Assembly (NCBI GenBank): GCA_018818165.1
Contig: JAHISP010000084.1
Span: forward strand, 248,001 to 312,000
Direction of reading: 5' to 3'
DNA: 64,000 nucleotides
From: Bacteroidota bacterium
GTDB taxonomy: Bacteria; Bacteroidota; Ignavibacteria; Ignavibacteriales; Melioribacteraceae
Positions within the stretch are counted from its first letter, which is position 1, and every line of letters starts with the position of its first letter. Shown here in pieces: positions 38,419 through 56,804 of the stretch. The translations under genes were made by a program, and so were the position numbers. The notes under the pieces were generated by a model that was given only the letters and a program-made list of their open reading frames with translations, had not been told where the DNA came from and ran no database searches.

Positions 38419-40665
38419 CTATTTGATAAATTGTTTTAAGCTAATTGTTTTTGAAAGATTATCAATTTGAAAAGCAAATTCGCCTGGCTCAACAACTTTT
38501 TTATTCTCACGATTATGAAATGAAAGATTTTCTGGAGTAATTATAAATTTCACTTTTTTCTCTTCGCCAGGTTTGAGATTAACTTTATCAAATCCTTTTA
38601 ATTGCCTTGTTGGTCTTGAAACACTTCCAAATTTGTCCGTTACATATAATTCTACAGATTCTTTACCTTCAACATCGCCAATGTTTTTAACAGTAACTGA
38701 AATATGTATTTCATCATTTATTGTTTGTGCATTAGACACAACTAAATCAATATACTCAAATGATGTGTAGCTTAACCCATGACCAAATTGCCACTGTGGT
38801 TTATAATGATTGTCTTCACTTTCTTCAATTGGTTTGTAGTCATAAGTAGTGTTTCCAGAAACTGTTTTAGGATAACTGAACGGTAATTTACCAGATGGAT
38901 TTATTTTACCTAAAAGTATGTCAACTGTTGCGTCTCCACCTTCTAATCCAGGCAAATAACCCAGAACAACAGCCTCAACCTTATCAACAATTTTACTTAT
39001 TACTCTGGGTCTACCTTCAAATAAAACTAGAATTATTGGTTTACCGGTTTTAGCTAATTCGTCTACTAGTTTTAACTGAGCTTCTTCAAGTGTTAAATCA
39101 AAAATATTACCAGGTGTTTCGCAATAAGGTGCTTCACCAAGACTTGCAATTATCACATCACTTTCTTTAGCAGCATCAACCGCAGCTTGAATATTTATAA
39201 CGCTGTCTATTCCAACACCCTCAACATATTTTACATTTTCTTTCCCAAACCCAACTTGTAATGCTTCGTAAAAAGTATTTTTCTCTTTAGGATAAAGGGC
39301 TTCGTTATTACCTTGCCAAACATACGACCACCCACCGTTTAAATACATCATTTTATTTGCAGTAGGACCAGTCAATAATATTTTTGTATTCCTATTTAGT
39401 GGAAGTATTGAATTATTATTTTTTAATAACGTAATTGATTCACTTGCAGCTTGTTTGTTAATTTCTGCTGATTCTTTTGATGCAAACTTAGATGCCAAGC
39501 TTTTATCTGGATATGGATTGTTAAATAAACCTAATGCAAATTTAACTCTAAGAATTCTTCTAACTGCATCGTCTATTCTTGATTCTGGAACTTCACCGTC
39601 TTCTACTAATTCTTTCAGAAGAATAGCAAAATCAACATTAAGTGGAACCATACTCATATCAATACCAGCCATTACAGCCAATTTAACAGCTTCTTTAGGA
39701 GATTCAGAAATTCCATCTCTTGTATGCAATCTTTCAACATCCATCCAATCAGAAACGATGAATCCTGAAAATCCAAGTTCTTCCTTCAATACTTTTGTAA
39801 GTAAATTATAATCAGAATGAACTGGAATACCATTTATCTCAGCAGAATTTGCCATTACTGTTAAAGCACCTGCTTTTACTCCTGCTGCAAATGGTGGCAA
39901 TAACAAATCTCTTAAAACTCGTTCTGGAATCCATGCTGGAGTTCTATCAAGACCGTTATTAGGTAGACTATAACCGATATAATGTTTTAAGCAAGCAGCA
40001 CCTGATGTAGGGTTTGACAAATCATCCCCTTGCATTCCTTCAACATATTCTTTAGCAAATTCGGTGGTTAAGTAAGAATCTTCACCAAAAGTTTCCCAAA
40101 ATCTTGGCCAGTAAGGCTCACGTGCTAAACCAAGAACTGGATTAAAATTCCAAGGAATGCCAGAAGCACGCATTTCTAGAGCAGTAATTTCTGCTGATTT
40201 TCTTACTAGCTCTCTATTTCTTGATGCTGCTATAGTAAAACCTTGTGGAAATAAAGTTGAACCTAAAGTATAGGTTGCTCCATGAATAGCATCAATTCCA
40301 TATAGAATGGGAATTTTTAATCTACTTTCTTTTGTGGCAACATCTTGAATGGTGGTAATAATTTCATGCCAACTTTCTAATGGATTTGCGGCTTGTCCAG
40401 TATTAAGCAGTGACCCAACTTTATATTTTAAGATTAGCTCTCTTAACTTTTTAATGTCAATGTGAAGTGGTTCTGTTTGAACTCTGTTTTTTCCCTCAAT
40501 TGAAAAACTTTGAAGAGCAATCTGAGTCATTTGACCAACTTTTTCCTCAATAGTCATTTGAGAAATGAGCGAGTCAATTTTGCCTTCATTTTCCATTACA
40601 TTCTTAACTTGAGCATTACCTTTTACAATAAACACAAAAAGAATAAGTAGAATTTTAAATTTCAT
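38419..40665 (-). CDS. GH3 beta-glucosidase, periplasmic (BglX type)
   Basis: 748 residues with a signal peptide (1-18, ending GNAQ). It follows the BglX pattern: IDSLISQMTIEEKVGQMTQI, PILYGIDAIHGATYT, NFNPVLGLAREPYWPRFWET, and CLKHYIGYSLP. The nucleophile is Asp306 in FIVSDWMDVERL. The alpha/beta sandwich starts QAASESITLLKNNNSILPL, and an Fn3-like tail follows FGHGLSYTSFEY. It would hydrolyse terminal glucose from beta-linked oligosaccharides in the periplasm. GGAGAAAT lies before the ATG and the next GH3 starts 20 bases after the stop; one operon with GH16 upstream. Confidence 0.92.
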   Translation of the reverse strand: MKFKILLILFVFIVKGNAQVKNVMENEGKIDSLISQMTIEEKVGQMTQIALQSFSIEGKNRVQTEPLHIDIKKLRELILKYKVGSLLNTGQAANPLESWHEIITTIQDVATKESRLKIPILYGIDAIHGATYTLGSTLFPQGFTIAASRNRELVRKSAEITALEMRASGIPWNFNPVLGLAREPYWPRFWETFGEDSYLTTEFAKEYVEGMQGDDLSNPTSGAACLKHYIGYSLPNNGLDRTPAWIPERVLRDLLLPPFAAGVKAGALTVMANSAEINGIPVHSDYNLLTKVLKEELGFSGFIVSDWMDVERLHTRDGISESPKEAVKLAVMAGIDMSMVPLNVDFAILLKELVEDGEVPESRIDDAVRRILRVKFALGLFNNPYPDKSLASKFASKESAEINKQAASESITLLKNNNSILPLNRNTKILLTGPTANKMMYLNGGWSYVWQGNNEALYPKEKNTFYEALQVGFGKENVKYVEGVGIDSVINIQAAVDAAKESDVIIASLGEAPYCETPGNIFDLTLEEAQLKLVDELAKTGKPIILVLFEGRPRVISKIVDKVEAVVLGYLPGLEGGDATVDILLGKINPSGKLPFSYPKTVSGNTTYDYKPIEESEDNHYKPQWQFGHGLSYTSFEYIDLVVSNAQTINDEIHISVTVKNIGDVEGKESVELYVTDKFGSVSRPTRQLKGFDKVNLKPGEEKKVKFIITPENLSFHNRENKKVVEPGEFAFQIDNLSKTISLKQFIK

Positions 40666-40675
40666 ATTTCTCCAT

Positions 40676-42487
40676 TTACTTAAGAAGTAACATTTTTTTA
40701 GTTTTAATAAAATCTTCGGTTTGAAGTTGGTAAAAATAAACTCCGCTCACTAAATTTTTTCCTAAGTCCTTAAAATTTAATGTTTGAGTATGTTTACCAG
40801 CTTCTTGGGTTTGATTAACTAGTAAACCAACTTCGTTGCCAAGTATATCAAATATTTTAAGTTTAACTTTACTTTTGCTTTGTAATATATATTCAATTTT
40901 AGTTGAAGGGTTAAACGGATTAGGGTAATTTTGAAGCAGCTCATATTTATTCAATGGATTGCTATTGTATCCAACAGAATTTGGAATTGGATTAATTTTT
41001 ATTCCACTTAAAACAACTCTATTTATTTCTGGTGAAAGTATTATTTCAAGCAGCTCATCGTTAACACTAATCTTTGTGGTAAAATCGTATGCAGCATTTT
41101 TACCAACTTCCGCAAAAATATCCAAATTATCCAATAGCAATTTATCTTCAATTGTAACATCAAAGACTCTATTGCCAGAAGAAGAAAAATATTTTTCCGC
41201 AAACATTAAAGTTACATCATATTCATTATTAGGTAATTTAATATTATATTTTCTTGTTGCCTCGCCATCAGTAAGATAAATTAAATCCTCATTGGTATTT
41301 GCAATTTGTGTATTGCTTGGCCAAGCACCATCACCACTATCAATAAAACCATATTTTAGAGATTCGTCCCATTCTTGATCAGCTAGAAAGTCATTAACCA
41401 AAAGCCCCCCAACATTAATGTGCAAAGGAAATTCTGGAATATAAGTTGGAATAATTGTTTTAACAGATGTAGAAATTATATTTCCCCAAATATCATTTAT
41501 GTTCATAACAATAAGGTTTGTTGCAACTGAAGAAATAAAATTATTTGTAGTTAAAGTAACCTTGGTTAAATCTTTTGAAAGCACAGCTGAACCTAATGTT
41601 GCACCAGAAATAATATAATTTGAAACCGTTTCTGCAGACGATTTATTTAATTCTTCAGAAAACTTTATTTCAATATTTCCATTTTCAAATGCTTTTGCAC
41701 ATACTAATGTTGGTTTTGCAACATCTGTATATCCAGTATTTACAGCGTTAGTTAAGCATAAAATTAATTTTCCATCATTAAAAACAACATTTTCTGGAAG
41801 GAAATCGCACATATTGCCTTGGAAGGTGTGGGTAGCCTTTCCCCAGCGAGTTGCATCATATGAATCAAAATTATCTCGCCATTGAGGAGTGAAATTATTA
41901 TCAGTTCCATAATTACCAGCACCTGGAGTATAAGATGAGTAGCTAACCCAGTCGTATTGTGCAAAAGTTGGAAGTGAATAATCATTCCACTCACCAACCC
42001 AATTAGCATATTCTGGATTCCAAATGTTCATCATTATTTTTTGTGACAAATTTAGTCCATTAATATGTTCACCAGTTTGTCTATGAACTTCAATGGAATC
42101 AACAAACCATGCAACATAATCTGGAGTCCACTCAAAAGCATAAGTATGAAATTCTTCATATTGATTAAACGAAATTGGGTGATTTCTCTCGTGCCCAACT
42201 TGATTACGAGTTATAGGATTAAATTGCATCATATCATCGTAGCGACCCACGTTTTCAATATCTATTTCATTCCAATCAGCCGTAGAAGTTATCTCGTGAT
42301 AAGTGAAGAATGAAGAAATAACACCAACACGGTTGGCGGGCTTCATATTAACTTCAAATCTACCATAAAGAAATGCGTCATGTGTTCTATACTCTGCCCC
42401 TTTATAGTTTTTAGCTATACTAGTTTGCAAAAATATGAAAACTATGAACCCAATTATTAAAAAAGAATACTTTATGTTTTTAGTCAT
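40676..42487 (-). CDS. Circularly permuted GH16 lichenase with Ig-like, malectin and T9SS domains
   Basis: 603 residues; signal peptide 1-25. Residues ~27-187 start AKNYKGAEYRTHDAFLYGRF, contain the catalytic DWNEIDIENVG (Glu74 nucleophile, Asp76, Glu78 acid/base) and end AQYDWVSYSSYTPG. Residues ~203-246 (RDNFDSYDATRWGKATHTFQ, then VVFNDGKLILCLT) correspond to the strand that in Bacillus lichenase is at the N-terminus (..FNSYNSGTWEKADG..). The domain is thus circularly permuted, exactly as in the known Fibrobacter succinogenes 1,3-1,4-beta-glucanase. Then follow a Big_5-type Ig domain (~258-350), a malectin-like domain (~353-500) and a T9SS sorting domain (LLQNYPNPFNPSTKIEYIL, end KKMLLLK). 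It is predicted to cut mixed-linkage beta-glucan or lichenan at the cell surface. Confidence 0.9.
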   Translation of the reverse strand: MTKNIKYSFLIIGFIVFIFLQTSIAKNYKGAEYRTHDAFLYGRFEVNMKPANRVGVISSFFTYHEITSTADWNEIDIENVGRYDDMMQFNPITRNQVGHERNHPISFNQYEEFHTYAFEWTPDYVAWFVDSIEVHRQTGEHINGLNLSQKIMMNIWNPEYANWVGEWNDYSLPTFAQYDWVSYSSYTPGAGNYGTDNNFTPQWRDNFDSYDATRWGKATHTFQGNMCDFLPENVVFNDGKLILCLTNAVNTGYTDVAKPTLVCAKAFENGNIEIKFSEELNKSSAETVSNYIISGATLGSAVLSKDLTKVTLTTNNFISSVATNLIVMNINDIWGNIISTSVKTIIPTYIPEFPLHINVGGLLVNDFLADQEWDESLKYGFIDSGDGAWPSNTQIANTNEDLIYLTDGEATRKYNIKLPNNEYDVTLMFAEKYFSSSGNRVFDVTIEDKLLLDNLDIFAEVGKNAAYDFTTKISVNDELLEIILSPEINRVVLSGIKINPIPNSVGYNSNPLNKYELLQNYPNPFNPSTKIEYILQSKSKVKLKIFDILGNEVGLLVNQTQEAGKHTQTLNFKDLGKNLVSGVYFYQLQTEDFIKTKKMLLLK

Positions 42488-42560: not shown

Positions 42561-43823
42561 TTATTTAAGTAACATCATTTTTTTTGATTCTCTATGTGTA
42601 CCAACTTGTAAAGTATAGAAATAAAATCCAGAACTTAAATTTTGAGCATTAAATGTTGTGCTGTGCAACCCAGCGTTTTCAAAATTGTCAACAATTGTTT
42701 CAACCTCTTGACCTAAAGTATTATAAACTATTAGTTTTACAAATCCACTTTCTTGCAAATTATACTGAATTTTTGTTGCTGGATTAAATGGGTTTGGAAA
42801 ATTTTGTTCCAACTTAAAGCTTGTTGGTTGGTAAGCAATTATATCGTTTGTTGATGTAATTGTTATAGGAATATTTTCATTCACAACTCTATTAAATAAA
42901 ATACGGTGTCCAGCATTATTTAGATGAATACCATCACCACTACCATAAGTAGAAACGATTTTTCCACTTTCATCTGCTATTGTAGACCAAAAATCGATAG
43001 CAGAATCACCCCAAATTGAATAAGTAGAATCTCTTACATCCATTAATGATTGTCGCTGGATGTCAGTTAAATTTCGAGGTTGAGTTGTTGCAACCCAAAC
43101 TGGAACATTTGCTGAATCGGCTTTATTCATAACTACACTATAATTAAATAATTGTTCTTCAACAGAATAATTATATGCCGCATCGTTTGAAGGAAGATTA
43201 ATAATAATTGCAATTGGTGAATATGATAAGGCTTTTGTTATATTGTGCCCAATTGCTGGTGATGGTCTATTTGCTGGTGTAACATAACCATTAGGAAGTA
43301 TTTCATAAGTTGTATAACCGCCAACAGCTAAATTAATTACATTTACAGCAGTATTTCTTTGTTGTACATATTTTTTATATCTAGTAACCCAAGCACTATC
43401 GTTCGTTGTTACCCCAACACCTGCAGCTGTTGAAGAACCTAAAACAAGAATGAACTTACTTTCAGATTGCTCTCTAATTGTAAAAGAATTTGAACTCATT
43501 GCATAAACAGAATCATTTGAAGTATCAGTAATTTTTATTTTGCATTCACTTGAAATAGAATCTGGAACATACCATGTATATTCACGTGCCGCTGATGGCC
43601 AGATCAGTGATATATTTTCCCAATCAACACCATCATTAAATGAGATATCTATTCTAATCAAACTAACCTTATCGCTTGTCCAAATTATTTTAGGTGAGCT
43701 TTTGTGCTCCCATATTTCTCCTCCATTTGGAGAAATAAGATTTAAAGATTGGGAAAACAATAAAGTATTAATCGAAAATAAAAATAGAATTAGAATTTTG
43801 TTTTGCTTCAATATTTTACTCAT
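42561..43823 (-). CDS. SGNH/GDSL hydrolase with T9SS sorting domain
   Basis: About 420 residues from the ATG at 43823; the frame is open six codons upstream to a TTG. Signal peptide (KQNKILILFLFSINTLLFSQ). Residues ~25-115 form an Ig-like domain of the type starting SPNGGEIWEHKSSPKIIW. Residues ~120-325 are an SGNH hydrolase: block I FILVLGSSTAAGVG (nucleophile Ser), block III-like NLPSNDAAYNYS, and block V DGIHLNNAGHRILF with the Asp-His pair. The tail is a T9SS domain (LEQNFPNPFNPATKIQYNL, end KKMMLLK). These enzymes remove acetyl or other esters from glycans; an esterase in a beta-glucan locus would help with acetylated cell-wall material. No precise substrate can be given. Confidence 0.85.
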   Translation of the reverse strand: MSKILKQNKILILFLFSINTLLFSQSLNLISPNGGEIWEHKSSPKIIWTSDKVSLIRIDISFNDGVDWENISLIWPSAAREYTWYVPDSISSECKIKITDTSNDSVYAMSSNSFTIREQSESKFILVLGSSTAAGVGVTTNDSAWVTRYKKYVQQRNTAVNVINLAVGGYTTYEILPNGYVTPANRPSPAIGHNITKALSYSPIAIIINLPSNDAAYNYSVEEQLFNYSVVMNKADSANVPVWVATTQPRNLTDIQRQSLMDVRDSTYSIWGDSAIDFWSTIADESGKIVSTYGSGDGIHLNNAGHRILFNRVVNENIPITITSTNDIIAYQPTSFKLEQNFPNPFNPATKIQYNLQESGFVKLIVYNTLGQEVETIVDNFENAGLHSTTFNAQNLSSGFYFYTLQVGTHRESKKMMLLK

Positions 43824-43886
43824 ATCAACTAATATTAACAATTATAATTAAAAAGCTAAGGGTTTATTTTCCCTAATATTTTAGAT

Positions 43887-43935: not shown

Positions 43936-44964
43936 TTAAAAATCAATTCCAACAGAGACTTTATGGATTGATGTTAGAATTCCAAAGTCTTGATAAGCAT
44001 AATCAATATGGAATGCTAAATTTCCTAATAATTTTTGTTTAAACCCAGCACCAAGAGCAAATGATTCTTGCGATTGATCAAGGAACAAAGACTTATAACC
44101 ACCTCGTAGTGCAATCACATCATTAAAAACATATTCTGCACCAACGTTTACACTTTCATAATTATCATTTGGATGTCTTGCATCAACATCAACAATTAAT
44201 TTGTGCATATCAGTTTTAATTACATCATAGGAAAGTCCAAGTACAAAGGTAAGTGGCAAAGACCAGTTTCCAGTAGTATATTCTCCAGGAATTCTATCAT
44301 TGTTTCCAGTAGTTTCTTCATCTTGATCAATTAATACAACAGCGGAATTTCCAGTAAGTTGTAATTTTGTGCCAAGATTCGTTATAGCCATTCCTATTTT
44401 TAAGCCATTAAATGGAGTATCGTAAAGAATTCCCATATCAATTGCAAAAGCTGTACCTGATGTATTCCAAATTGATTGTTGAATTACTTTTGGATTAAAC
44501 CCAATTGAAAATTCTTGAGTTAAGTTAATTGCCCATCCAAGACTTACAGCAACATCTGAAACAGAAAAAACAGATCCCGTTCCATCTGGTTCATCAACTG
44601 TTGTAACATTCATTTCGCCATAATTGGAACCAATAAAACTAATACCAATTACACCAAAATCTCCAAGATTTATACTTCCAGCAATAAAATTGTAACTTAA
44701 ATCAGCAATCCATTGAGTATGATCGAACACAACTGAATTACCATTTTGTCTAGCAATACCGGCAACATTCCAAAACATTGATGATGCATCATCAGAAACA
44801 GCAACAAAAGCACTTCCCATTCCGGTACCTCTAGCACCTTGACTCACTTTTAGAAATTGTGCCGCAGTTGTACCTCTTTTAGAAACATTATCAACATATT
44901 GTGCGTTAATGCTAAAAGCGACAAAAATAAAAACGAGTAAAGTTTTAATAACTAATTTATTCAT
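43936..44964 (-). CDS. PorV/PorQ-family outer membrane barrel
   Basis: 342 residues from the ATG at 44964, chosen because AAGGAT precedes it; the frame opens two codons earlier at a TTG. Signal peptide (NKLVIKTLLVFIFVAFSINAQ). The mature start has AAQFLKVSQGARGTGMGSAF and AVSDDASSMFWNVAGIA, the N-terminal signature of the PorV/PorQ (UPF0164) family. Long FadL-like strands follow, ending HKVSVGIDF. PorV shuttles T9SS cargo to the cell surface; dedicated paralogues next to surface proteins may act on particular partners. It lies five to eleven bases after the large FlgD-tailed gene and close to the TonB receptor, suggesting the three make one outer membrane assembly. Confidence 0.88.
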   Translation of the reverse strand: MNKLVIKTLLVFIFVAFSINAQYVDNVSKRGTTAAQFLKVSQGARGTGMGSAFVAVSDDASSMFWNVAGIARQNGNSVVFDHTQWIADLSYNFIAGSINLGDFGVIGISFIGSNYGEMNVTTVDEPDGTGSVFSVSDVAVSLGWAINLTQEFSIGFNPKVIQQSIWNTSGTAFAIDMGILYDTPFNGLKIGMAITNLGTKLQLTGNSAVVLIDQDEETTGNNDRIPGEYTTGNWSLPLTFVLGLSYDVIKTDMHKLIVDVDARHPNDNYESVNVGAEYVFNDVIALRGGYKSLFLDQSQESFALGAGFKQKLLGNLAFHIDYAYQDFGILTSIHKVSVGIDF

Positions 44965-44975
44965 TTTCAAAATCC

Positions 44976-47900
44976 TTATTTAATTAACGCAAACTTATTA
45001 ATATATTCCCCAACATTAGGAGCTTTTACATGGTAAATATAGAGTCCACTAGCAACATCCATTCCGTCCTCTGAAACTAAATTCCATTCTAGCGAGCCAT
45101 TTGTAGGTGAATATTCCTTAACCAATTCTTTAACCAAATCTCCAGAAACAGTATATATTGAAACTGTACATTCTGCTGGAAGATTAATAAAATTTATCTT
45201 CCTTTCGCCACGTCCAGTTTGGTTGAGGTTTCTTCTTTCCCAAGTAGTGGCAGCAATATATGGATTAGGAACAACGGATATTTTTTTAAGTTTGTCCTTA
45301 ACTAATTCGTCATCAATTGATGCTGATTGGGTATTAAATGTAAAGTAGTCACCGGTTGCAAACTGTTTTGTAGTTTTGAATTGGAAAATATCTCCAGCAA
45401 CAGGTTCTTTTGGTTGAACATTTGCAATTCCAGGAGCATGATAATTTATTCTCCAAGTAAGTTTATAGAGTGTTCCAGCATATTCAATAATTACTATTTC
45501 ATCCCCGTATGATAAATCGGCAGAACCATCATTGTCAAATATTTCCGCAGCTGATGTATCACCAGTAGTTGTATTTATAACCAAAAAGTTTGCATCAAGT
45601 TTGAAGAAAGGTGTTTTCGCAACAACTTCATCGCCATAAAATCTTATTTCATAATCAGCAGGCCATGCTACATTTTTAGCAGGAGAAGTAGCGTCAGGAT
45701 TGACTTCCATAGTTAAATTGCTGCTACCAACTAACCAACCAGTTTCATTTAAATTAACAGAAACAGCTGTATCATTCAAAACACTAAATACTAAACCATC
45801 AAAAGGTTGTGTAAATGAATTTTTTCCAAAATCTGTGCTTTTAGTAATTAAAGTATCGGTTGCTCCGTTACTTGTTTTAATTAGGTTATACGAACTAGTA
45901 ATGTAATTTGGCAAATTACCTTCTGCAGTAAATTCAACTTTATAAGAGGCATCATTTACAACCAATTCTTCATTTAGTACAACAACATTCAATTGTCCAG
46001 TTCCAATACCTTCTGCAACCTTAGTTATATCCCCAGATAATTGTGGAGGAAGATATCCGGCAGCAGGTGCATTAGGAACAATTACAGCACAGTTATAGTC
46101 AACGAATTTAACATTACCAGAATTGTCCTCAGTTATTATTTTTGTACATTCAGAAGGCACTAAACCTTTAGTTCCAAAACTTGGGTCACCCATGTCATAA
46201 GAAACCAATGCGTAATAATATTTTTTACCATTAGTAACCGTAGTATCAATAAATGAGTGTTGCAAACCAGTATCTTTTCCTCTATTAAAGCTAGCTCCGT
46301 TAATCCCAATTGGATCTGGACCAAGAATTCCATCAATTAAATCAAATTGAGCAATAGGTCTTGAGTACTTTGCATTTCCACGTGTATCTGTAATTACTTT
46401 AATATCATTAAATTCTGGCTCTTGACTTCTATAAACCAAGTAACCTTCAAAATCCTTTTTATATCCAAGTGTTGGATTGCCTTGTTCGAAACCTAAAAAT
46501 GGATCGCGAGATTGTTCTGCAGCATTATCCCAATAAAGAAATACTTTTTTATCACCAGGAACAGCCGTAAGTTTTGGCTTATCCGGTGGTCTAGAAAAAT
46601 TGTAGTTTGCATTATAAATTTGTTGTACAGTTTCTTTATTAAAGAATAAATCTTCTAAATCTTCACCAAATAATAATGCCATTGAAAATCTTTCACGAGC
46701 ATTTAGTCTTAATGGAAAAGCACCAGAAGCAAAAACCATACTAATGTTTGCTTTTTGAAGCGATGTATCAAAATTGGCTGTTTGCATTTTTAACCACATT
46801 GATTCATCATCTTTTGGCCAACCACCACCAGTTCCCCCATCGCCCAAGCGGTAAATTGATAAACTTGTTAAACCAATCTGGTCAGATTCATCTTTATCTG
46901 TTTTGTCAAAATTTGGCTCACCATCAGTAGGTATTCCATCCCCTTCACCAGCATCGGGAGCAATATATTGAGAGTCAAATGGACCAACACCATCTTGACC
47001 AACATCATTATTTAATGGCTCATTTTCATCAGCATCCCATTTACCGTTACCATTTAAATCACTATATGCTAACCAATCGCCGTCGTTATCAATTCCATCC
47101 GCACGACTTTCATCAACCATTCCATCATCATCATTATCAAAACTATCAAATGAGTTACCAGGACTTTCGAGATAAGCATAACCCAAATAACCAGTTTTCC
47201 ATCTACCAGGTGCTCCGTAACCATCATCATCAAAAGCATAAGCAAGATCAAGAAGGATATTGTATGAAGCGTTATCATCTGAGTTATCGCCTGAACCACC
47301 AACCCCAGTATCGGTATAAAAACCAAAGTAAGTTTTTTCGTAATCGTTATCAGAAAGATTCACAATGTCGTAATGCCAAAATATAATATCTTCAGCTAAT
47401 ACGTGCGACCATTGAAAGCCTCTGGTTTCAACGCGAAGACCAATTCCTTGTCTTTCGTGATCATTCTCTACAGGATGGAAATTATAAGGAGGTCCAGCAA
47501 ATTCACCATCTTTAGAATCATCCATAACAAAAAATGTTTCAAAGTCAGCATTTTTAACGCCTCGCCCAAAATAACCATACCAGTATCCATTCCAATTATC
47601 ATCTAGATTTGGAAGAGCGCTTGGCCAAGCATCTGGCCATGAGTCAGGATTTGTACTAATAGCTGGATCTTCTGATGATGCATTAGCATAACCAGGCACT
47701 GCTTCCAATCCCCAAATAGTTCCATTTACAGGATCTCTATCCATCCATTCACGATATGAAGTTTCTAGTGGATGAACTATTCCTGCATCAGTAGTTATTT
47801 CGGATGCAATTAAAACGGCAACACCATCAAGATAGTTGTGGCCTGTACCTTTAAGCCACTCACCAGAAGGAGAAAATGGCCACTGACCAACTTCACCATT

Positions 47901-48065
47901 ATTATAGAATAAAGTTCTAACAAGATTTCCATCCATTAAACCTTCTCTTCTATATTGTATATTCCCATAAGGATCATTTCTGTATGCTTCAATTTGTTCA
48001 TTAACTTGTGCAAAAGCACTTGAAATGAACAGTAACAATAGAAATGGAATTTTTTTGAATAACAT
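44976..48065 (-). CDS. Large surface protein with Ca-binding repeats and FlgD-like tail
   Basis: 1029 residues; signal peptide 1-19 (PFLLLLFISSAFAQ). The first ~330 residues have many Trp/Tyr/Gly/Asp and no family I can name. Residues ~310-400 are a run of acidic Ca-binding-like motifs (DNDDDGMVDESRADGIDNDG, then DLNGNGKWDADENEPLNND), similar to thrombospondin type 3/EF-hand loops. An Fn3-like stretch with YLVYRSQEPEFND follows (~545-650). The end is a FlgD-type Ig domain (VSIYTVSGDLVKELVKEY, NLVSEDGMDVASGLYIYHVK). It sits 23 bases after the TonB receptor gene and just before PorV. In this position SusD would be expected, so it is a candidate glycan-binding partner of the receptor. That role is inference. 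AAGAGGT precedes the ATG. Confidence 0.75.
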   Translation of the reverse strand: MLFKKIPFLLLLFISSAFAQVNEQIEAYRNDPYGNIQYRREGLMDGNLVRTLFYNNGEVGQWPFSPSGEWLKGTGHNYLDGVAVLIASEITTDAGIVHPLETSYREWMDRDPVNGTIWGLEAVPGYANASSEDPAISTNPDSWPDAWPSALPNLDDNWNGYWYGYFGRGVKNADFETFFVMDDSKDGEFAGPPYNFHPVENDHERQGIGLRVETRGFQWSHVLAEDIIFWHYDIVNLSDNDYEKTYFGFYTDTGVGGSGDNSDDNASYNILLDLAYAFDDDGYGAPGRWKTGYLGYAYLESPGNSFDSFDNDDDGMVDESRADGIDNDGDWLAYSDLNGNGKWDADENEPLNNDVGQDGVGPFDSQYIAPDAGEGDGIPTDGEPNFDKTDKDESDQIGLTSLSIYRLGDGGTGGGWPKDDESMWLKMQTANFDTSLQKANISMVFASGAFPLRLNARERFSMALLFGEDLEDLFFNKETVQQIYNANYNFSRPPDKPKLTAVPGDKKVFLYWDNAAEQSRDPFLGFEQGNPTLGYKKDFEGYLVYRSQEPEFNDIKVITDTRGNAKYSRPIAQFDLIDGILGPDPIGINGASFNRGKDTGLQHSFIDTTVTNGKKYYYALVSYDMGDPSFGTKGLVPSECTKIITEDNSGNVKFVDYNCAVIVPNAPAAGYLPPQLSGDITKVAEGIGTGQLNVVVLNEELVVNDASYKVEFTAEGNLPNYITSSYNLIKTSNGATDTLITKSTDFGKNSFTQPFDGLVFSVLNDTAVSVNLNETGWLVGSSNLTMEVNPDATSPAKNVAWPADYEIRFYGDEVVAKTPFFKLDANFLVINTTTGDTSAAEIFDNDGSADLSYGDEIVIIEYAGTLYKLTWRINYHAPGIANVQPKEPVAGDIFQFKTTKQFATGDYFTFNTQSASIDDELVKDKLKKISVVPNPYIAATTWERRNLNQTGRGERKINFINLPAECTVSIYTVSGDLVKELVKEYSPTNGSLEWNLVSEDGMDVASGLYIYHVKAPNVGEYINKFALIK

Positions 48066-48088
48066 TTTTACCTCTTAATCAAACATTT

Positions 48089-50761
48089 TTAGAATACAAC
48101 GCTTAAACCAAGCTTAATTTGTCTTGGAGATGAATACATGCCTGGATTATTAACAAATTCGTCAATTGTATTTAATCCATTAATTTCACCAGCATATTTA
48201 ACATTTAAATCAGTTCCAGCACGTCCAGTAGTTGAATAAACACCATTTTCATTGAGAATATCAAATAAGTTATAAACAAGAAGAATAGCGTGAAAATCAA
48301 TTCCTAAAAGATTGAAGTTTTTATCTGCTTTTAAATCGAAATATACTGAAGAAGGTTTACGACCACCATTTTCAAAAGTTACAGAATTACTTACTTTTGT
48401 ATCCTCAGTATAAGGTGTTCCAGAACCATATCGCGCTATAAAACCAACAATCCAATCGCCTGGTACACCAACATTTGCACTTAAATTTACAGTATGTCGC
48501 TGATCCCAATTTAATGGAACAACAACTTTTTCAGGTTCAACGTTATTCTTAGTATCGTTATAAACAGACATAGGGTCAGAAGAGTTTCCTTCTACAATTT
48601 GCAATGTGTAGTCAACTTTCATACTAAAATTGTCTGAAAATCGTTTATCCAAACTAATAATTGCACCAGTTACGTTTGCATAATCTTTATTTGTAAATCG
48701 CGCATACTTAAATCCTTCGTAAGTACTAAGAATTTCAGTAGCCAAAAGATTTCTAATATCGCTATAGTAAACTGAAAAATCGACAGCAACATTTGGGAAT
48801 ATTACTTGCTGAATACCCAATTCGTATTTAACTGTTTTTTGGGCTTTTAAGTCTGGATTACCTGTTACACTATTAAGCGCTGATTGATCAATAATATAAT
48901 CGTTGTTTTGATATAAATACTGCATTGTTGGCATTTGGAAAAAATGTCCATAAGAAAAATGAATTGCACCTTTATCAGAAATAGGGAATGACAAGCCTAA
49001 TCTTGGGCTAATTTGAGATTTAGCTTTAACGGCAACGGTTTGTCCAGCACCAGGAAAATTAGGATTTCCAAAAACAGTATTTGTTTGTTCAAGCAAATAT
49101 TGATAAGGATTACGCATATCAATAGGCATGCTTGTATTTGCATTAAAATAATCAAAACGGACACCGAGATTAACAATCATTATGTCATATTCCATTTTGT
49201 CTTGTATGTAAGAAGAAATGCTATAAGGGTTTGCATCATAAAACTGATTACCAGAAGTGCCAAGCGCTCTATATCCAAGAGTAAAAATTTCTTGGTTGTT
49301 CAAATCTAGTTCACCTTCGGTAAGGTTAACAATATCTTTTCCATGATTATATATTTCATATTTATTGACTTCAATTCCTAATTTAATTTTGTGTCCTTTA
49401 GATATTTGGGATTCAAAAGCTAATTGTGCAATTGAAGTATATGTGTGTCGTTCGTATCTGCTTGTTTGCTGTCCACCTTGTCTAAAAGTATAATCAGAAT
49501 TTGGAAGCCCATGTTTTGGGTCTAAGTATCTAGAATCATATTCATCTTCATATAAATAACCTTTATAATTACTCATGTTATAAGCAAGTTTTATTGAAGC
49601 AAATGAACTTTGATTAGGTATAAAAGAAAATTGAAAAGAGTTTAATAAATTGTCTCTATAATGGTTCATTAATCCATCTGGAGCCCATTCGAAAGCATGA
49701 TCGAAATATTTGTTTTCATTATCATCAAATATCGTATTCCAACTAGCTTTCCAACTTGAACCTTGGTAAGTAAGTTTTCCATTTACTGATTTTCTTGAAG
49801 CAGGACTCATTTTAACGTATTCTCCATCTCCTGTAGGGAAAAATGGATTTGTGTCGGTCATATTATATACTCTTTTCCCATAATAAAGACCGTCTTCTTG
49901 AACGTATCTTCCACTAACAAAAAATCCAAGATTCTTAATTAGTTTTGTTGGTCCATCAAAAGAAAACTGAATATCTGCAGATTTTGCAGAAGTAAAATTA
50001 TCCAAGTTTGAGTAAATATTTGTGTTGGAATAATATTTACCAACATAAGCTGTAGCGCTACCAGAATAATTTTGGCCAGCATCTTTTGTAATAATATTAA
50101 CAATACCAGACATTGCGTTACCGTACTCTGCATTAAAAGTACCACTAATAACTTCTAATTGTCTAATAGAATTGTTTTCCACTTCTATTGAAACACCGCC
50201 ATCGTAGGCATCATTAACAGCAATACCATCAACCAAATACGAGACTTCCCCACCACGTCCACCGCGGAAGTGACCATCAACAACCCCAGCTTGAATATTT
50301 ACAACTTGGTGCATGTTTTCAACAGGCATCATTTTAATTTCCTCAGCTGATACAGTAGATGAAGAAGATGTTAAATCTTTTGTAATAAGAGGTTTTTGTG
50401 CAACAACCACAACCTCTTCATCTAATGTAATTGATTCGCCGCTTAAACTAACATCAATTTGAGTAGTTCTATCAACATTAACAATAACATCTTGAATTAT
50501 GGTTCTGTTATATCCCATAGAACTAACAATCATTTTATGCTTGCCTGGTGGAACATTTATAATAAAATAGTATCCATCCAAATCAGTTGCACCACCTAAG
50601 TAGGTTCCGTCAACAATAACATTAGCACCAATTAGAGGTTCTCCAGTTGATTTATCAACTACATAACCAGATATTTTGCCAGTTTCACCAGCAAAAAGAT
50701 TCATTGAAAGCAAAAGCATCAATGAAAATAAAATTGCAATTTTTTTAAGAGGTGATTTCAA
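48089..50761 (-). CDS. TonB-dependent receptor with carboxypeptidase-D-like N-domain
   Basis: About 890 residues. I favour the TTG at 50761 with GGGGA eight bases upstream; the frame opens five codons earlier at another TTG. The signal peptide is ILFSLMLLLSMNLFAG. N-terminal CarboxypepD_reg-like domain ~28-110 (GKISGYVVDKSTGEPLIGAN, GGATDLDGYYFIINVPPG). The plug is ~125-235 (VENMHQVVNIQAGVVDGHFR, SYLVDGIAVNDAYDGG, EYGNAMSGIVNIITK). A 22-strand-type barrel follows, ending MYSSPRQIKLGLSVVF. It should import oligosaccharides across the outer membrane using TonB energy. It resembles SusC in having the N-terminal domain, but is shorter and no SusD follows. A strong hairpin upstream separates it from the CBM protein gene. 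Confidence 0.92.
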   Translation of the reverse strand: MKSPLKKIAILFSLMLLLSMNLFAGETGKISGYVVDKSTGEPLIGANVIVDGTYLGGATDLDGYYFIINVPPGKHKMIVSSMGYNRTIIQDVIVNVDRTTQIDVSLSGESITLDEEVVVVAQKPLITKDLTSSSSTVSAEEIKMMPVENMHQVVNIQAGVVDGHFRGGRGGEVSYLVDGIAVNDAYDGGVSIEVENNSIRQLEVISGTFNAEYGNAMSGIVNIITKDAGQNYSGSATAYVGKYYSNTNIYSNLDNFTSAKSADIQFSFDGPTKLIKNLGFFVSGRYVQEDGLYYGKRVYNMTDTNPFFPTGDGEYVKMSPASRKSVNGKLTYQGSSWKASWNTIFDDNENKYFDHAFEWAPDGLMNHYRDNLLNSFQFSFIPNQSSFASIKLAYNMSNYKGYLYEDEYDSRYLDPKHGLPNSDYTFRQGGQQTSRYERHTYTSIAQLAFESQISKGHKIKLGIEVNKYEIYNHGKDIVNLTEGELDLNNQEIFTLGYRALGTSGNQFYDANPYSISSYIQDKMEYDIMIVNLGVRFDYFNANTSMPIDMRNPYQYLLEQTNTVFGNPNFPGAGQTVAVKAKSQISPRLGLSFPISDKGAIHFSYGHFFQMPTMQYLYQNNDYIIDQSALNSVTGNPDLKAQKTVKYELGIQQVIFPNVAVDFSVYYSDIRNLLATEILSTYEGFKYARFTNKDYANVTGAIISLDKRFSDNFSMKVDYTLQIVEGNSSDPMSVYNDTKNNVEPEKVVVPLNWDQRHTVNLSANVGVPGDWIVGFIARYGSGTPYTEDTKVSNSVTFENGGRKPSSVYFDLKADKNFNLLGIDFHAILLVYNLFDILNENGVYSTTGRAGTDLNVKYAGEINGLNTIDEFVNNPGMYSSPRQIKLGLSVVF

Positions 50762-50805
50762 TTTATCATTCCCCAATATTTTGAATATCGTTTAGTTTAT
50801 TTAAT

Positions 50806-50839
50806 TAGCGGCTATCAGGAGGTACAGTGATAGCCGCTA
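50806..50839. promoter_or_regulatory. Strong 12-bp hairpin between the CBM-protein and TonB-receptor genes
   Basis: TAGCGGCTATCA (50806-50817) and TGATAGCCGCTA (50828-50839) pair perfectly around a ten-base loop, 17 bases past the CBM-protein stop and about 45 bases before the receptor start. It is the most G+C-rich hairpin in the operon. Without a T-run it probably protects or processes the mRNA, or attenuates transcription. Confidence 0.6.
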
Positions 50840-50855
50840 TAGAATTTGATGTTAA

Positions 50856-53324
50856 TTACTTAAGTAACATCATTTTTTTAGAGTCTACGAAATTACCAGA
50901 TTGAATTCTATAAATATAAAGTCCAGTACTCAATTGGCTAGCATCAAATTTAACTTGATATTGACCAGCGTTTTGTGTTGCATTTACAAGTGACATTACT
51001 TCTTGTCCCAGAATATTGTATATCTTCAAAGAAACCATTCCACTTTTTTCAAGTGAATAACTAATAACTGTTGAAGGGTTAAATGGATTAGGATAGTTTT
51101 GTGATAATTCATAAGAATTTACAGAAAGTTTATTATCATCAACATCTGTCATTTTATCGCCAATCCAAGTGTATGTCCAGAGAGAAACATTTGAATACGA
51201 TTTATCTTGGTTATTGATTGAATATGTTAAAATACCTTCTCTTTCGCCAGTCGCGTCAGCATCATTAACAGAAAAATCGATAGGAATTCTCATACCAACT
51301 TCAGGATTGAATCTTGCATCACCTCTTTCTGTTAAATCATCTAAAGAGATTCTACCTTCAATTACGTATCCAGATGGGAATTTTTCTGACCAGTGATAGT
51401 CATCACTAGTTGGGCGTAATATAACGACACCCCAGTTATCAACACGTACTGCATTTGAATTAAATCTGAAATGATAATCTGGCTCATCACCTGTCTTATA
51501 GCCCGTATGAGAAGGACCATGCCAATCGTAAAGACCAATATATAAATCTGGTGAATCAATTAAATAAGAAGATTTAGTTGAATCAATAGCAATTACATCA
51601 TCTTCAACATCAATTGCGAAGTATAAATAATTTTCATCAAAAGCTACATAGGCGTTAACTGATAAGTCAGCATCACCATCAATAACAGTATTGTTAACAA
51701 TAGTACCACTTCCATCAGATGGGAACATTCTAAAAGGAGCAATTGCTGACCATTCGCTTAAATTACCATCTGCGGCAAAATTAGCAGGAGCAGTAGGATG
51801 AATTGCTGTAACACCTTTTGCTGTGTTAACAACTGCATCTGTTGCAGTTAAAGCACCAACATTACCTGCTGCGTCTGTTGCATAAACAGCATAATAATAA
51901 GTCAATTCAGTATCTTTTACAGGAGCAATAATAGTATGTGAAGCTATTTGAGTTCCGACTGCAATTTTGCTTGCAACAGCTTCTATACCAGCATCTTCAA
52001 GAGAAACTATTGGGCTCATAGAATACAAAACAGTATAAGTACTTTTTGATTCATTCGGAACATCAAGCCATGTAATTAAGTTTTGATAAGTACCAACAAC
52101 TGGAATAACACCTGTTGGAGCTTCTGGAGCTACAACATCAATTGGTGGGTTACCAGTCCATAGGAAGTCTATCCATAATTTTTTACCAGCAGAAGCATTT
52201 CCTTCACCCATCATTTGAAAAACGGTAATGCTTGATGAGTCAAAATCAGCTTTGCCATCAATTACATAGAAATCAGCTAAAGCAAGTGAATAATCGTGCC
52301 ATTGGTCATCAGCAACTATATCAAAAGCAAAACCAACTGATCCATTAGCTCCCGATTCAAATTGTAATCTGATAGGAGAATTTGTTCCGGCTTCTGCTTT
52401 TAAAGCAAATTTAAGAGAATCTAAAGCCCATCTATAACCTAAATCGTGAGCAGGACTTACATTCCAACCAGCACCAGACCAACCATTAGCCCATTCGTCA
52501 CCTTGTGTCCAAAGAAGAGCATTAGTTTTTGGATCAATTCCAGCACCGTCAACTATTTCAAGACCAGATTGTCCCCAAGTAAATTGAGCTAATGCAGGGT
52601 CTAAAGATTTACCATTAAAAATAATCCAAGGGTTTTCTGCAACTCCGGTTAAATGAAGGTCATCAAAAATTACTTGACCACTTGAATAATCGCCTTCACC
52701 AGCACCACTTATTGAAAATTCAAAAGCATAGCCTTTAATTTTGTTAGCATCAAGTTGATTGTTTCCAACAACTCCAGCCCAACCAGTTCTGTTAAAACCT
52801 TCACCATTCCAAAAATTTGCGTCAGCTTTTAATGGAAGTGTAATTGTTTGCCATTGGCTTGAAGAATCGTCACAAACATTATATTCGAATGAATAATAAA
52901 ATTCTGTGCTTCCTGCGCCACTTGTTGTATCATCTACATCTGAAACATCATATAATTCAAATCTTAAATGAATACGACCAACTAATGATTGAGGTGTTAG
53001 AGTATAAAATGAAAATGACACGGAATCGAAAGCACTCCAATCGTAAACTTGTGAGTCAGGTGCCATGTGGAATATTTTAGAATAACCACCCCATCCTTCT
53101 ATATTGTGTGCACTATAATCAATTGACATAGCATTGCCTGAAACTGCTATACCACTTTGGTAAGAATCTTTTACATAACCAAGTAAAGAATCAGCATTTA
53201 CGCTAGTCTCATATTTCCAGTAAGTAGATTCTTGAGGCTCTTCGAAATTGTTAATAACTTGTGTCTGTGCAATGACAAAGCTACTTAAAGCAAGGAATAA
53301 AAAAAGAAAAGTAAATTTTCTCAT
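50856..53324 (-). CDS. Multi-CBM surface protein with CBM9-like and T9SS domains
   Basis: 822 residues; signal peptide 1-19 (LFLALSSFVIAQ). Two CIA30/CBM11-like jelly-roll domains follow (~22-230 from TQVINNFEEPQESTYWKYET; ~232-395 with DQWHDYSLALADFYVIDG and a KLWIDFLW end). An Fn3-like domain is ~400-500. A CBM9/DOMON-like domain is ~505-720 (NFAADGNLSEWSAIAPF, NAYVAFDENYLYFAIDVEDD, GYVIEGRISLDDL). The C-terminus is T9SS sorting (LSQNYPNPFNPSTVISYSL, end KKMMLLK). No catalytic motif is visible. It is probably a surface glycan-binding protein, the functional counterpart of SusE/SusF/SGBPs, upstream of the receptor. AGGAG precedes the ATG. Confidence 0.82.
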   Translation of the reverse strand: MRKFTFLFLFLALSSFVIAQTQVINNFEEPQESTYWKYETSVNADSLLGYVKDSYQSGIAVSGNAMSIDYSAHNIEGWGGYSKIFHMAPDSQVYDWSAFDSVSFSFYTLTPQSLVGRIHLRFELYDVSDVDDTTSGAGSTEFYYSFEYNVCDDSSSQWQTITLPLKADANFWNGEGFNRTGWAGVVGNNQLDANKIKGYAFEFSISGAGEGDYSSGQVIFDDLHLTGVAENPWIIFNGKSLDPALAQFTWGQSGLEIVDGAGIDPKTNALLWTQGDEWANGWSGAGWNVSPAHDLGYRWALDSLKFALKAEAGTNSPIRLQFESGANGSVGFAFDIVADDQWHDYSLALADFYVIDGKADFDSSSITVFQMMGEGNASAGKKLWIDFLWTGNPPIDVVAPEAPTGVIPVVGTYQNLITWLDVPNESKSTYTVLYSMSPIVSLEDAGIEAVASKIAVGTQIASHTIIAPVKDTELTYYYAVYATDAAGNVGALTATDAVVNTAKGVTAIHPTAPANFAADGNLSEWSAIAPFRMFPSDGSGTIVNNTVIDGDADLSVNAYVAFDENYLYFAIDVEDDVIAIDSTKSSYLIDSPDLYIGLYDWHGPSHTGYKTGDEPDYHFRFNSNAVRVDNWGVVILRPTSDDYHWSEKFPSGYVIEGRISLDDLTERGDARFNPEVGMRIPIDFSVNDADATGEREGILTYSINNQDKSYSNVSLWTYTWIGDKMTDVDDNKLSVNSYELSQNYPNPFNPSTVISYSLEKSGMVSLKIYNILGQEVMSLVNATQNAGQYQVKFDASQLSTGLYIYRIQSGNFVDSKKMMLLK

Positions 53325-53391: not shown

Positions 53392-54912
53392 TCAGTTGTT
53401 TAGCTTATCAATATTTAACGCCATCTTATTTAAACTATATAATTTTTCCCCTTTCTCAGCAGTAACAAAAGCAATAACAACAAAAACAAGAGTTGAAAAT
53501 GAGAAAAGAATTCCAGCAAAATATAGATAGTTTAATGAAGCAAAGGTAACAATAATAGTGTTTGATGTTGTATCTGTAACTAGAAAATCAGCAGCTAGCC
53601 TTAAAAGTCCAAAAATTTCCCCAATTATTAAAGTCCATATTAAAGCATGAGATGTAGCTTTTTTCCAGAATAGACCCAACAAAAATATAACAACAATTGG
53701 TGGACTGATATAAGCTTGCATGCTTTGTAAATTAACATACATTCCATTACTAAAAAGTTTTAACAATGGGATAAACATAATTGAACCAATTACAATAAAA
53801 ATAGTTGATAATCTACCAACTAAAACTAATTGTTCATCATTTGCTTCTGGATTACTTCCTTTAACAAAATCATAAGCAATTAAAGTAGCTGTTGAATTAA
53901 ATGCACTAGCAAGTGAAGACATAAGTGCAGCAAAAAATCCACTTAAAATAATTCCTCTAATTCCAACTGGAAAAATGCCTGAATTAAAAAGTGAAGCATA
54001 GGCTTCATTGGGTGAAATTGAAGCATTTAATTGAATTGCAACCATTCCTGGAATAATAAATAATAAAAATGGAAACAATTTTAAGCCCGCTGCAAATAAA
54101 GTACCTTTTTTTGCCTCAGTTAAATTTCTTGCACTCAAAATTCTCTGAACAATATATTGATCTGCAAACCAGTACCATGCTGCAAGAATAGGAGCACCAA
54201 CTAAAATTCCTAGCCAAGGAAAATCTGGGTCTGATATTGGCTTAAAAACTTCCCAATGACCAATTGGAAGGTCATTAAAGAGAGCTTCAAAACCACCAAT
54301 AGCCTCTATTCCAAAGAATAGAACAAAAAAACCGCCAACTAGGAAAACAACTGCTTGAAATATTTGAGTATACATAACCGAGCGAAGCCCGCCGATTATT
54401 GTATAAATTCCAGTGAAGAGAAGGATAATTACAGTTGATGTAACAAAATTCCAACCGAGAATTTCTTTTAATAAAATTCCACCAGCAAGCAATGTAATTG
54501 CAATTTTTGTGAAAATGTAAGTAAATATTGATAATCCAGAAAAGATTTTACGAGCAGAATTTCCAAATTTTTTACCAATTAGTTCTGGAATTGTATGAAC
54601 TTGGGATTTCAAAAATATTGGAGCAAAAATCCAACCAAGCATAATTATAAAAATTACTGCCAACCATTCAAAATGCCCAACAGCAATTCCCCTTTCGGCG
54701 CCAGAACTTGCCAAACCAACCAAATGTTCACTAGAAATATTTGTTGCAAAAATTGAAAATCCGATAACTAACCAGCCCATATTTCTATTTGCCAGAAAGT
54801 AATCCTCCGCAGTTGGTTTTTCTCGTTTCGAAAAATAAAACCCAATTGCTAATACTATTACAAAGTAAAGTAAAATTATTGCGTTATCGTATGTGCTTAA
54901 TGAATCTATCAA
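53392..54912 (-). CDS. Sodium:solute symporter (SSS), second copy
   Basis: 506 residues, about thirteen to fourteen helices. Typical motifs are AIILLYFVIVLAIGFYFSKR, EDYFLANRNMGWLVIGFSIF, the sodium-site helix IIGGLRSVMYTQIFQAVVF, AAWYWFADQYIVQRILSAR and SPPIVVIFLLGLFWKKA. It is shorter than and only moderately similar to the symporter at 24775, so it may carry a different sugar. Start is a TTG with AAGAAAAA before it, the only candidate near the first helix. It is the first gene of the stretch containing the CBM protein, receptor and barrel genes, with a 350-base upstream region. Confidence 0.9.
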   Translation of the reverse strand: MIDSLSTYDNAIILLYFVIVLAIGFYFSKREKPTAEDYFLANRNMGWLVIGFSIFATNISSEHLVGLASSGAERGIAVGHFEWLAVIFIIMLGWIFAPIFLKSQVHTIPELIGKKFGNSARKIFSGLSIFTYIFTKIAITLLAGGILLKEILGWNFVTSTVIILLFTGIYTIIGGLRSVMYTQIFQAVVFLVGGFFVLFFGIEAIGGFEALFNDLPIGHWEVFKPISDPDFPWLGILVGAPILAAWYWFADQYIVQRILSARNLTEAKKGTLFAAGLKLFPFLLFIIPGMVAIQLNASISPNEAYASLFNSGIFPVGIRGIILSGFFAALMSSLASAFNSTATLIAYDFVKGSNPEANDEQLVLVGRLSTIFIVIGSIMFIPLLKLFSNGMYVNLQSMQAYISPPIVVIFLLGLFWKKATSHALIWTLIIGEIFGLLRLAADFLVTDTTSNTIIVTFASLNYLYFAGILFSFSTLVFVVIAFVTAEKGEKLYSLNKMALNIDKLNN

Positions 54913-55262: not shown

Positions 55263-56804
55263 CTAAGGAAGCAATTCTTTTAATGATTTTGGCAGCCAAT
55301 ATTTCCATTTATAAAATGACTGAGAATAAGGAACTGCTGTTATTTGACCACCAAAGCCTAAAGTACGATAAACCATCATTTCAATATTAGTTACTTTAAT
55401 AGAATTTAATAGTTCAGTATTAACCGAAATTCCATACTTTTTTGCTAAACTAACAGTTTTATCAATATACAAATTTTCTAATTCCTTAAAATACAATCCA
55501 CTTTTAATCTTTTCTTTAACTTCATCATAAGTTCTATTTGCACTATCAGGATTTTCGGAAATAATCTTATTATAATAATCCTTTGCTTGCATTTCATCTG
55601 TTTCAACTGAATCAAGTAGTGAATATCTATAATAGCTTGCTAAAAAACTATCTTTCCAAGTTATTAATTCATTTTGTATCTCTGGTAAGTTTTGTAACCC
55701 GCGAGAATATCCTTCACGAAAAAGTATTTCCTCAAAAATATAAGCTTTTATATCACTACTTAATGCTTGTGCAATTCCCCATTTACTCATTTTATCAGTA
55801 ACTAATCCATTTAATTCTAAATTTGTTAAATATTTTTCTAGACTAATTGGTGATACTTCAAATTTAATAAAATTACTAGCTAACCATGTTTCGTGTATAT
55901 TATTTTTAACCATTCTTATTTGATATTCATCAAGCTGGTATTTTTTTGTGTTTTCGTTAAAAAGAGTTTCATATTTATCTTCAAAGCTATTAAAAATTGC
56001 ATCACCTAAAACACTAAAAAGTTTTTTATCCGTATTTACAACCACACTTTTAACATACTTTGCAAAAAACTCATTATAAAATATTTTAGCTTTTCTATCA
56101 AAAATTGTCTCTTCCACTTTTTTTCTATTTGCAGTAATTTGGCTTTCATCAGTTGGTTGATTAAACTCAATGTTTTTTAAGTAATAAATTACCCAACCGA
56201 TATTTATTGGAACAGGTTTGGAAAATTGACTTAGTTTAAGTGAATAAATTTCCGACTCAAGCTCCTTAACCATTTGTCCATAAATTACAGAAATACCATT
56301 TGTTTGCTCTCTTTGCTCAACTCTATTAACTAATATAGAGTTAAATAGTTCGCCAGCGACAAGTCTATTATATAAAGAATCTATTTCACTTTTCCGTTTG
56401 GAAAAAAGGAAATTAACAATTCGTTTTTCGTTTGTTTTGGGCAAATCTTCAGCTATTTCGGTTTCACTTATTTTAACTTTACTTTCAATTTCTATTTTAT
56501 AAAGTTTGTCTTTTACTAATTTCCTTTCAATATTTTTTACGGAATTATAAACGTATGGAATTGTATCCAACGATAACGATTGAGCTTCCAACGCCCATAA
56601 TTTTTCGGCAATAATTGAATACAAAAAATTTACTTTGCTGCTATCGTGGTCGTTATTTTCTTTTGGAGTAAATTCAAATCTTTTTTTGAATTCAATAGCG
56701 GATATTTCTTCATTTCCAACTTTAGCAAGAAATTTTTCTTGTGCAAAAACTAATGCCGTTGGAATTAAAACAACTAATAATATTATATAAATTTTATTTT
56801 TCAT
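55263..56804 (-). CDS. SurA/PpiD-like periplasmic chaperone (parvulin-type)
   Basis: 513 residues with signal peptide (1-21, ending ALVFAQ). The start of the mature protein, KFLAKVGNEEISAIEFKKRF, and the helical N-terminal region are typical of SurA_N. The parvulin-like section (~125-210: KRIVNFLFSKRKSEIDSLYN, LVAGELFNSILVNRVEQRE, PVPINIGWVIYYLKNIEF) is recognisable. The His/Cys/Asp pocket of active isomerases is not clear, so chaperone rather than isomerase activity is likely. A second helical half (~240-513) resembles another such module with DSANRTYDEVKEKIKSGLYF. Members help outer membrane proteins fold; next to T9SS cargo and barrels that fits. It lies 150 bases downstream of the GH2 gene, with a terminator between. 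Confidence 0.75.
   Translation of the reverse strand: MKNKIYIILLVVLIPTALVFAQEKFLAKVGNEEISAIEFKKRFEFTPKENNDHDSSKVNFLYSIIAEKLWALEAQSLSLDTIPYVYNSVKNIERKLVKDKLYKIEIESKVKISETEIAEDLPKTNEKRIVNFLFSKRKSEIDSLYNRLVAGELFNSILVNRVEQREQTNGISVIYGQMVKELESEIYSLKLSQFSKPVPINIGWVIYYLKNIEFNQPTDESQITANRKKVEETIFDRKAKIFYNEFFAKYVKSVVVNTDKKLFSVLGDAIFNSFEDKYETLFNENTKKYQLDEYQIRMVKNNIHETWLASNFIKFEVSPISLEKYLTNLELNGLVTDKMSKWGIAQALSSDIKAYIFEEILFREGYSRGLQNLPEIQNELITWKDSFLASYYRYSLLDSVETDEMQAKDYYNKIISENPDSANRTYDEVKEKIKSGLYFKELENLYIDKTVSLAKKYGISVNTELLNSIKVTNIEMMVYRTLGFGGQITAVPYSQSFYKWKYWLPKSLKELLP

Follow-up and report, generated by a model that had tools for sequence, protein, structure and literature searches.

A SusD-less set of TonB receptor, large beta-rich T9SS-type protein and PorV-family barrel as a proposed module for glycan uptake in Ignavibacteria

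In many Ignavibacteria-type bacteria three adjacent genes, encoding a TonB-dependent receptor, a large beta-rich protein that we call BIG and a barrel of the PorV family, likely capture and import glycans in place of SusC/SusD; this reading draws on the sequences, on how the genes are ordered and on a structure model. We conclude that the trio is real and widespread, and that it probably stands for a new form of TonB-dependent glycan uptake. With a probability of about 0.55, we regard it as a SusD-less outer-membrane module for glycan capture and uptake, in which a barrel-anchored BIG would feed the receptor; in doing so we infer the formation of the complex, the binding of glycans and the retention of the C-terminal domain (CTD) of BIG.

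In Bacteroidota, glycan uptake is generally interpreted in terms of SusC/SusD pairs, which are also what loci are commonly predicted from. Of the 75 genomes of the class, 55 gave no SusD, and the 20 others hold matches in at most 3 copies each. With most class genomes tested thus devoid of a detectable SusD, uptake loci in them would escape notice or receive wrong annotations; as a marker for such loci the trio could serve in Ignavibacteria and also in records labelled Calditrichota, Neomarinimicrobiota and others.

The gene set of the window and the BIG protein

The window, i.e. the whole stretch of 64,000 nucleotides analysed, corresponds to C35:248001-312000 within a genome of 4.88 Mb. The four open reading frames announced at 43936-53324 on its minus strand are all present. 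The CBM protein (822 aa, 50856..53324) carries a CBM9_1 domain (Pfam, 50.2 bits, 3.8e-13) and a canonical type A T9SS tail (Por_Secre_tail, 46.0 bits), and clears the NCBIfam type A cargo model TIGR04183 (47.9 bits, 9.8e-13); some 20 loci have a homologue of it immediately before the receptor, and we propose for it a SusE/F-like role. The TonB-dependent receptor (895 aa, 48089..50776) consists, according to Pfam, of a CarboxypepD_reg-like domain, a plug and a barrel, and displays a TonB-box-like motif, DEEVVVV. It falls outside the NCBI SusC/RagA subfamily TIGR04056 (86.8 bits versus a cut-off of 368.25, the best stretch being N-terminal only). BIG (1029 aa, 44976..48065), known here from its sequence and an AlphaFold2 model, is followed by a PorV/PorQ-family barrel (344 aa, 43936..44970; NF033709, 224 bits for a cut-off of 90), its proposed cognate shuttle or anchor.

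The same strand carries, further on, a GDSL lipase/esterase with a T9SS tail (42561..43841, Pfam), a GH16 beta-glucanase with a malectin domain and a T9SS tail (40676..42487, Pfam), which is the linked surface enzyme, and two GH3 glycoside hydrolases (38419..40665 and 36189..38399, Pfam PF00933/PF01915), the homologues of which both adjoin the trio in related loci. On the other side of the CBM gene, and again on the minus strand, lies an inner-membrane sodium:solute symporter (53392..54912, Pfam SSF 261 bits), which beta-glucan loci keep in this upstream position relative to the CBM protein. A TonB receptor beside a GH16 and two GH3 genes (Pfam), repeated in related genomes, is the composition of a polysaccharide utilisation locus.

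The absence of SusD, which the original prediction had pointed out, holds for this set: a genome-wide search (PF07980) returned two SusD-like matches only, on contigs C12 and C52 and none on the contig of the window, so that “SusD-less” is correct. One of these matches is above the cut-off and the other weak, and each lies a few kb from its own receptor. The SusD fold is mainly alpha-helical. The model of BIG obtained with 61 homologues is good (pLDDT 85.7, pTM 0.74; an earlier one with 16 sequences was mediocre, pLDDT 69) and comprises 37.5% strand and 8.1% helix. This beta-rich composition firmly argues against a SusD fold inside BIG, and SusD is also absent from the 50 best PDB fold matches; we thus ruled it out. 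A SusD fold in the 1029-residue protein or in a neighbouring gene would have spoken against the original prediction, and what we found instead is a beta-rich protein that is not SusD-like.

From the strand pattern of the model and the sequence we read the following layout, with borders that are our own: a signal peptide, an N-terminal beta domain (~40-485) with an Asp-rich Ca-type insert (~305-400), a FnIII-like domain (~495-660), a further beta domain (~685-915) and a T9SS-type CTD (~929-1029). The body belongs to no family of Pfam or NCBIfam, and by sequence the PDB offers no credible relative. By fold, PorZ, a surface protein of the T9SS, is the top PDB match of the model and PorU is also among the matches; the superposition on PorZ is poor overall, so that the match supports the CTD and the Ig-like parts and not the whole of BIG. 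A weak similarity of the N-terminal domain to the beta-sandwich part of GH94/GH149/GH116 enzymes was kept as a lead only (Foldseek probability 1.0, but with a TM of ~0.2, some 7% identity and an rmsd of 7-15 A); the matches of two BIG paralogues to a phage tail tube model, and those to a yeast protein, were taken as chance. A possible Ca-binding-type loop, DxDxDG, occurs in 63 of 73 BIGs. Anchoring by a lipid was discarded: the lipobox is absent at the end of the signal peptide, and the pattern was matched in 3 of 73 BIGs, each time within the hydrophobic stretch.

The FlgD-type end that had been proposed for BIG calls for a correction: Pfam FlgD_ig stays below its cut-off and a divergent T9SS-type CTD is a better description. 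In BIG this domain matches PorU, PorZ and the type A tail below the thresholds (Pfam/NCBIfam), with 17.1 bits for TIGR04183 against a cut-off of 23. Several paralogues match PorU, PorZ and Por_Secre_tail weakly but consistently, so that a T9SS CTD in the broad sense is recognised. The features of type B cargo, a TIGR04131 CTD and a barrel of the PorP/SprF family, are absent among the NCBIfam matches of BIG and of the barrel. One paralogue (L072:10951-14058, G000:C22), 71% identical to the BIG of the window over residues 4-491, ends with a canonical T9SS tail of type A, and no PorV gene adjoins it; perhaps nature has swapped the tail here. It counts among the few BIG copies that have neither receptor nor PorV as neighbours.

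Recurrence of the trio and partnership of its members

We assembled 14 complete receptor-BIG-PorV trios in the genome of the window, versus two SusD-like matches, and counted about 20 BIG paralogues. Both partners are adjacent for 73 of the 91 BIG copies gathered, most exceptions being located at contig ends. The median gaps within the trio, 19 and 16 nt, suggest a single operon. Other genomes contributed 67 loci, some of them from records that bear the labels Calditrichota, KSB1, Delongbacteria and Neomarinimicrobiota, and most show the order receptor-BIG-PorV; such a repetition, inside one genome and in foreign loci, is well beyond chance. BIG relatives are present in 181 of 296 genomes sampled across the phylum and, within the class, in nearly every genome listed, where the match of several families is weak and covers maybe little beyond the CTD. 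The order is altered to receptor-PorV-BIG at L080:5050-12486 (G000:C10), near an alpha-N-acetylglucosaminidase gene.

A PPIC-type prolyl isomerase family (~510 aa) accompanies 41 of 72 trio loci. Of its 5 copies in the genome of the window, 4 are beside trios; the copy in the window itself (513 aa, 55263-56804, minus strand) was recognised through weak Rotamase matches (Pfam), and others are at L073:8323-9840, L075:3600-5297 and L080:3523-5040. The isomerase is possibly a dedicated chaperone for the proteins of the trio.

Over the 14 trios of this one genome, the distances between BIG bodies follow those between receptors (r=0.88, p=0.0002), and still do so when PorV is controlled (partial r=0.70). 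The distances of the CTD and of PorV are also correlated (r=0.68, p=0.0002); with the receptor controlled, the partial r of 0.33 (p=0.017) is no better than that of the CTD and the receptor with PorV controlled (0.34). Because of these partial correlations, we consider that the sequences support well a partnership of body and receptor and support weakly a specificity of CTD and barrel, the latter being inseparable from the correlation of CTD and receptor.

The barrel of the window is homologous to the solved PorV 6h3i (phmmer, 2.1e-11), and is below the equivalog cut-offs of the housekeeping PorV and PorQ, NF033710 and NF033711 (83 versus 250 and 96 versus 220 bits). As the housekeeping PorV is located elsewhere, beside PorU on contig C9, the barrel is a paralogue, in agreement with the original prediction; about 30 PorV-family matches exist in this genome. 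The T9SS machinery is there as well: the genome has SprA and a PorU next to PorV, and its type A tails number at least 150. In P. gingivalis, PorV and PorQ hold PorU and PorZ at the surface (PMC5562754), and the CTDs of PorZ and PorU are retained (PMC10202324); cognate PorP-type barrels hold type B cargo (PMC9143113, PMC12618676), and FadL-family barrels carry the surface canopy of the Bacteroidota BAM complex (PMC12611786).

With such a machinery at hand, BIG could be an ordinary T9SS cargo, whose CTD would be removed by PorU and which would end up LPS-attached or released, as a free surface glycan binder having no receptor partner, the PorV paralogue being a mere shuttle. PorU, PorV and the many type A tails of the genome agree with this, and the CTD of BIG is recognisably related to the type A tail. 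We nevertheless hold it as unlikely: this CTD is under the type A cut-off and also recalls those of PorU and PorZ, which are retained; a PorV paralogue of its own goes with most BIGs despite the housekeeping one; and BIG co-diversifies with the receptor. It is more likely, in our view, that the PorV homologue of the window acts as a retained anchor than only as a shuttle.

Neighbourhoods of the trio and proposed route of uptake

The orthologues of the trio of the window belong to a conserved succession of genes: symporter, CBM protein, receptor, BIG, PorV, GH16, GH3, the GH16 coming after the trio in most beta-glucan-type loci. The most likely substrate in the window would be a beta-glucan such as laminarin. 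A second lineage is neighboured by the prolyl isomerase, an extracellular sugar-binding protein, two ABC permeases and two GH130 phosphorylases, which we read as a beta-mannan-type locus. The trees of BIG, of the receptor and of PorV each part the GH16/GH3 loci (18 of 19 together) from the GH130/ABC loci (32 of 32), across phyla, and the intruders are solely loci without marker genes. The sample was drawn by similarity to BIG, so that two BIG clades are not surprising; what is informative is that the receptor, PorV and the enzymes follow. The parallel trees reflect in part the joint inheritance of one operon.

Two observations touch on the mannan-type loci. Second BIG copies, with the usual CTD, occur at L158:9887-13126 and L184:9965-13219, where their neighbours are a glycosidase-like lipoprotein and a GH2 gene and not a receptor and PorV. 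In the window itself an SBP_bac_1 extracellular sugar-binding protein (59577-60875, plus strand, opposite to the trio) clusters with the ABC binding proteins of these loci.

Other trios of the same genome are near GH53/GH5 (L075), GH20 (L076) or alpha-N-acetylglucosaminidase (L080). The conservation of the trio beside varying glycan enzymes, which the original prediction had named as its own check, is observed for beta-glucan, beta-mannan-type, galactan and N-acetylhexosamine-linked loci. There are also trios with no glycan enzyme nearby: L082 is beside an M14 peptidase, and L081 and L085 have nothing relevant. The trio of L074 (G000:C89:1-18500) adjoins a D-Ala-D-Ala carboxypeptidase S13, an AmiA-like amidase, an amino-acid permease and a ROK gene; these peptidoglycan-recycling neighbours suggest a muropeptide-linked version.

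A trio without any tie to glycan loci would also have spoken against the original prediction, and the tie is observed. In view of the trios lacking a nearby glycan enzyme, the module looks nonetheless like one for nutrient uptake in general and less like one strictly for glycans. One may go further and propose that the ligand varies among glycans, muropeptides, peptides and others, BIG being a scaffold or cover of the receptor and not a glycan binder, for which its FnIII- and Ig-like domains, of scaffold type, would be suited and with which the neighbours of L074, L082, L081 and L085 comply. We find this improbable, as the two best-sampled lineages follow specific glycan enzymes across phyla and several other trios of this genome also have a glycan enzyme near. 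That the barrel be a FadL-like transporter of small molecules, the three genes being adjacent for co-regulation only, is hardly credible: PorV-family barrels are indeed relatives of FadL (PMC9143113, PMC12578637), but order and spacing are fixed over many loci and phyla, all three genes co-diversify, and PorV, PorQ, PorP and BamG are known to work in protein complexes.

BIG and its own PorV-type barrel fit the pattern of PorU/PorZ, of type B cargo and of the BAM canopy, to which they add a TonB receptor, and the host has a T9SS; we therefore propose anchoring by the CTD together with glycan capture. BIG would be exported by Sec to the periplasm and then by the T9SS across the outer membrane. 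Its PorZ/PorU-like CTD, caught by the adjacent barrel, would stay uncleaved, the barrel serving as the anchor of BIG where SusD would use a lipid. The body, placed over or beside the co-encoded receptor, would bind the oligosaccharides freed by surface enzymes (GH16 in the window) and hand them over to the receptor, which would import them with TonB energy; the GH3 enzymes and the inner-membrane symporter would complete the uptake. The alternative glycan-capture complex imagined at the outset, with BIG as a putative lid, is supported in part, by the lack of SusD and the conservation of the trio beside glycan enzymes.

A wider claim can be made, tentatively and with slightly less than even confidence: the trio could be a second, independent solution to the role of SusD, forming a TonB uptake family that crosses phyla. 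The place of the SusD lipoprotein would be taken there by a beta-rich capture protein, exported by the T9SS and keeping its CTD, along with a PorV-type barrel of its own, and in many loci a dedicated prolyl isomerase would be added. If true, PorV-family barrels would gain a new role, the anchoring of nutrient-uptake proteins, and T9SS and TonB transport would be joined in one module.

Comparison with known systems

Our literature searches, whose coverage leaves out many subscription papers, found no paper describing the trio as a system. A precedent is the alginate PUL of Rhodothermus marinus, where a 2022 paper on alginate lyases shows three consecutive genes next to the lyases: tonB, a T9SS-tailed hypothetical gene, hypA (2181 nt), and a gene of the PorV/PorQ family; the authors labelled these genes only and did not propose a function (PMC9530828). 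The gene order is that of the trio, a likeness read from order and labels, and hypA may correspond to BIG. This locus supports the generality of the trio, which is testable in cultured R. marinus, Melioribacter and Stygiobacter.

Like SusC/SusD of Bacteroidota, the trio associates a TonB receptor having an N-terminal carboxypeptidase-like domain with a large partner at the surface that is encoded together with it; CAZymes lie next to both, and there is one more binding protein for the surface. It differs by the lack of SusD, by a receptor far under the SusC subfamily cut-off, and by BIG, which is beta-rich, about twice the length of SusD, not a lipoprotein, provided with a T9SS-type CTD and accompanied by a PorV-type barrel. 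The PorZ-PorQ and PorU-PorV pairs of the P. gingivalis T9SS attachment complex likewise unite a surface protein with a related CTD and a PorV/PorQ family barrel, and offer a precedent for CTD retention and barrel anchoring; those pairs, however, process T9SS cargo, whereas in the trios the pairs are paralogous and numerous, and go together each time with a TonB receptor and a locus for nutrients. With type B CTD cargo (SprB-SprF, PG1035-PorP-PorE) the trio shares one barrel per CTD protein, often side by side, the barrel fixing the final location, but the type of CTD and the barrel family are others, and a TonB receptor is not described in those operons. Finally, the BamG/BamH canopy of the Bacteroidota BAM also uses a FadL-family barrel as the pillar of a large extracellular structure above another barrel; there BamA takes the place of the TonB receptor, BamH is a lipoprotein, and the function is an essential one, in assembly.
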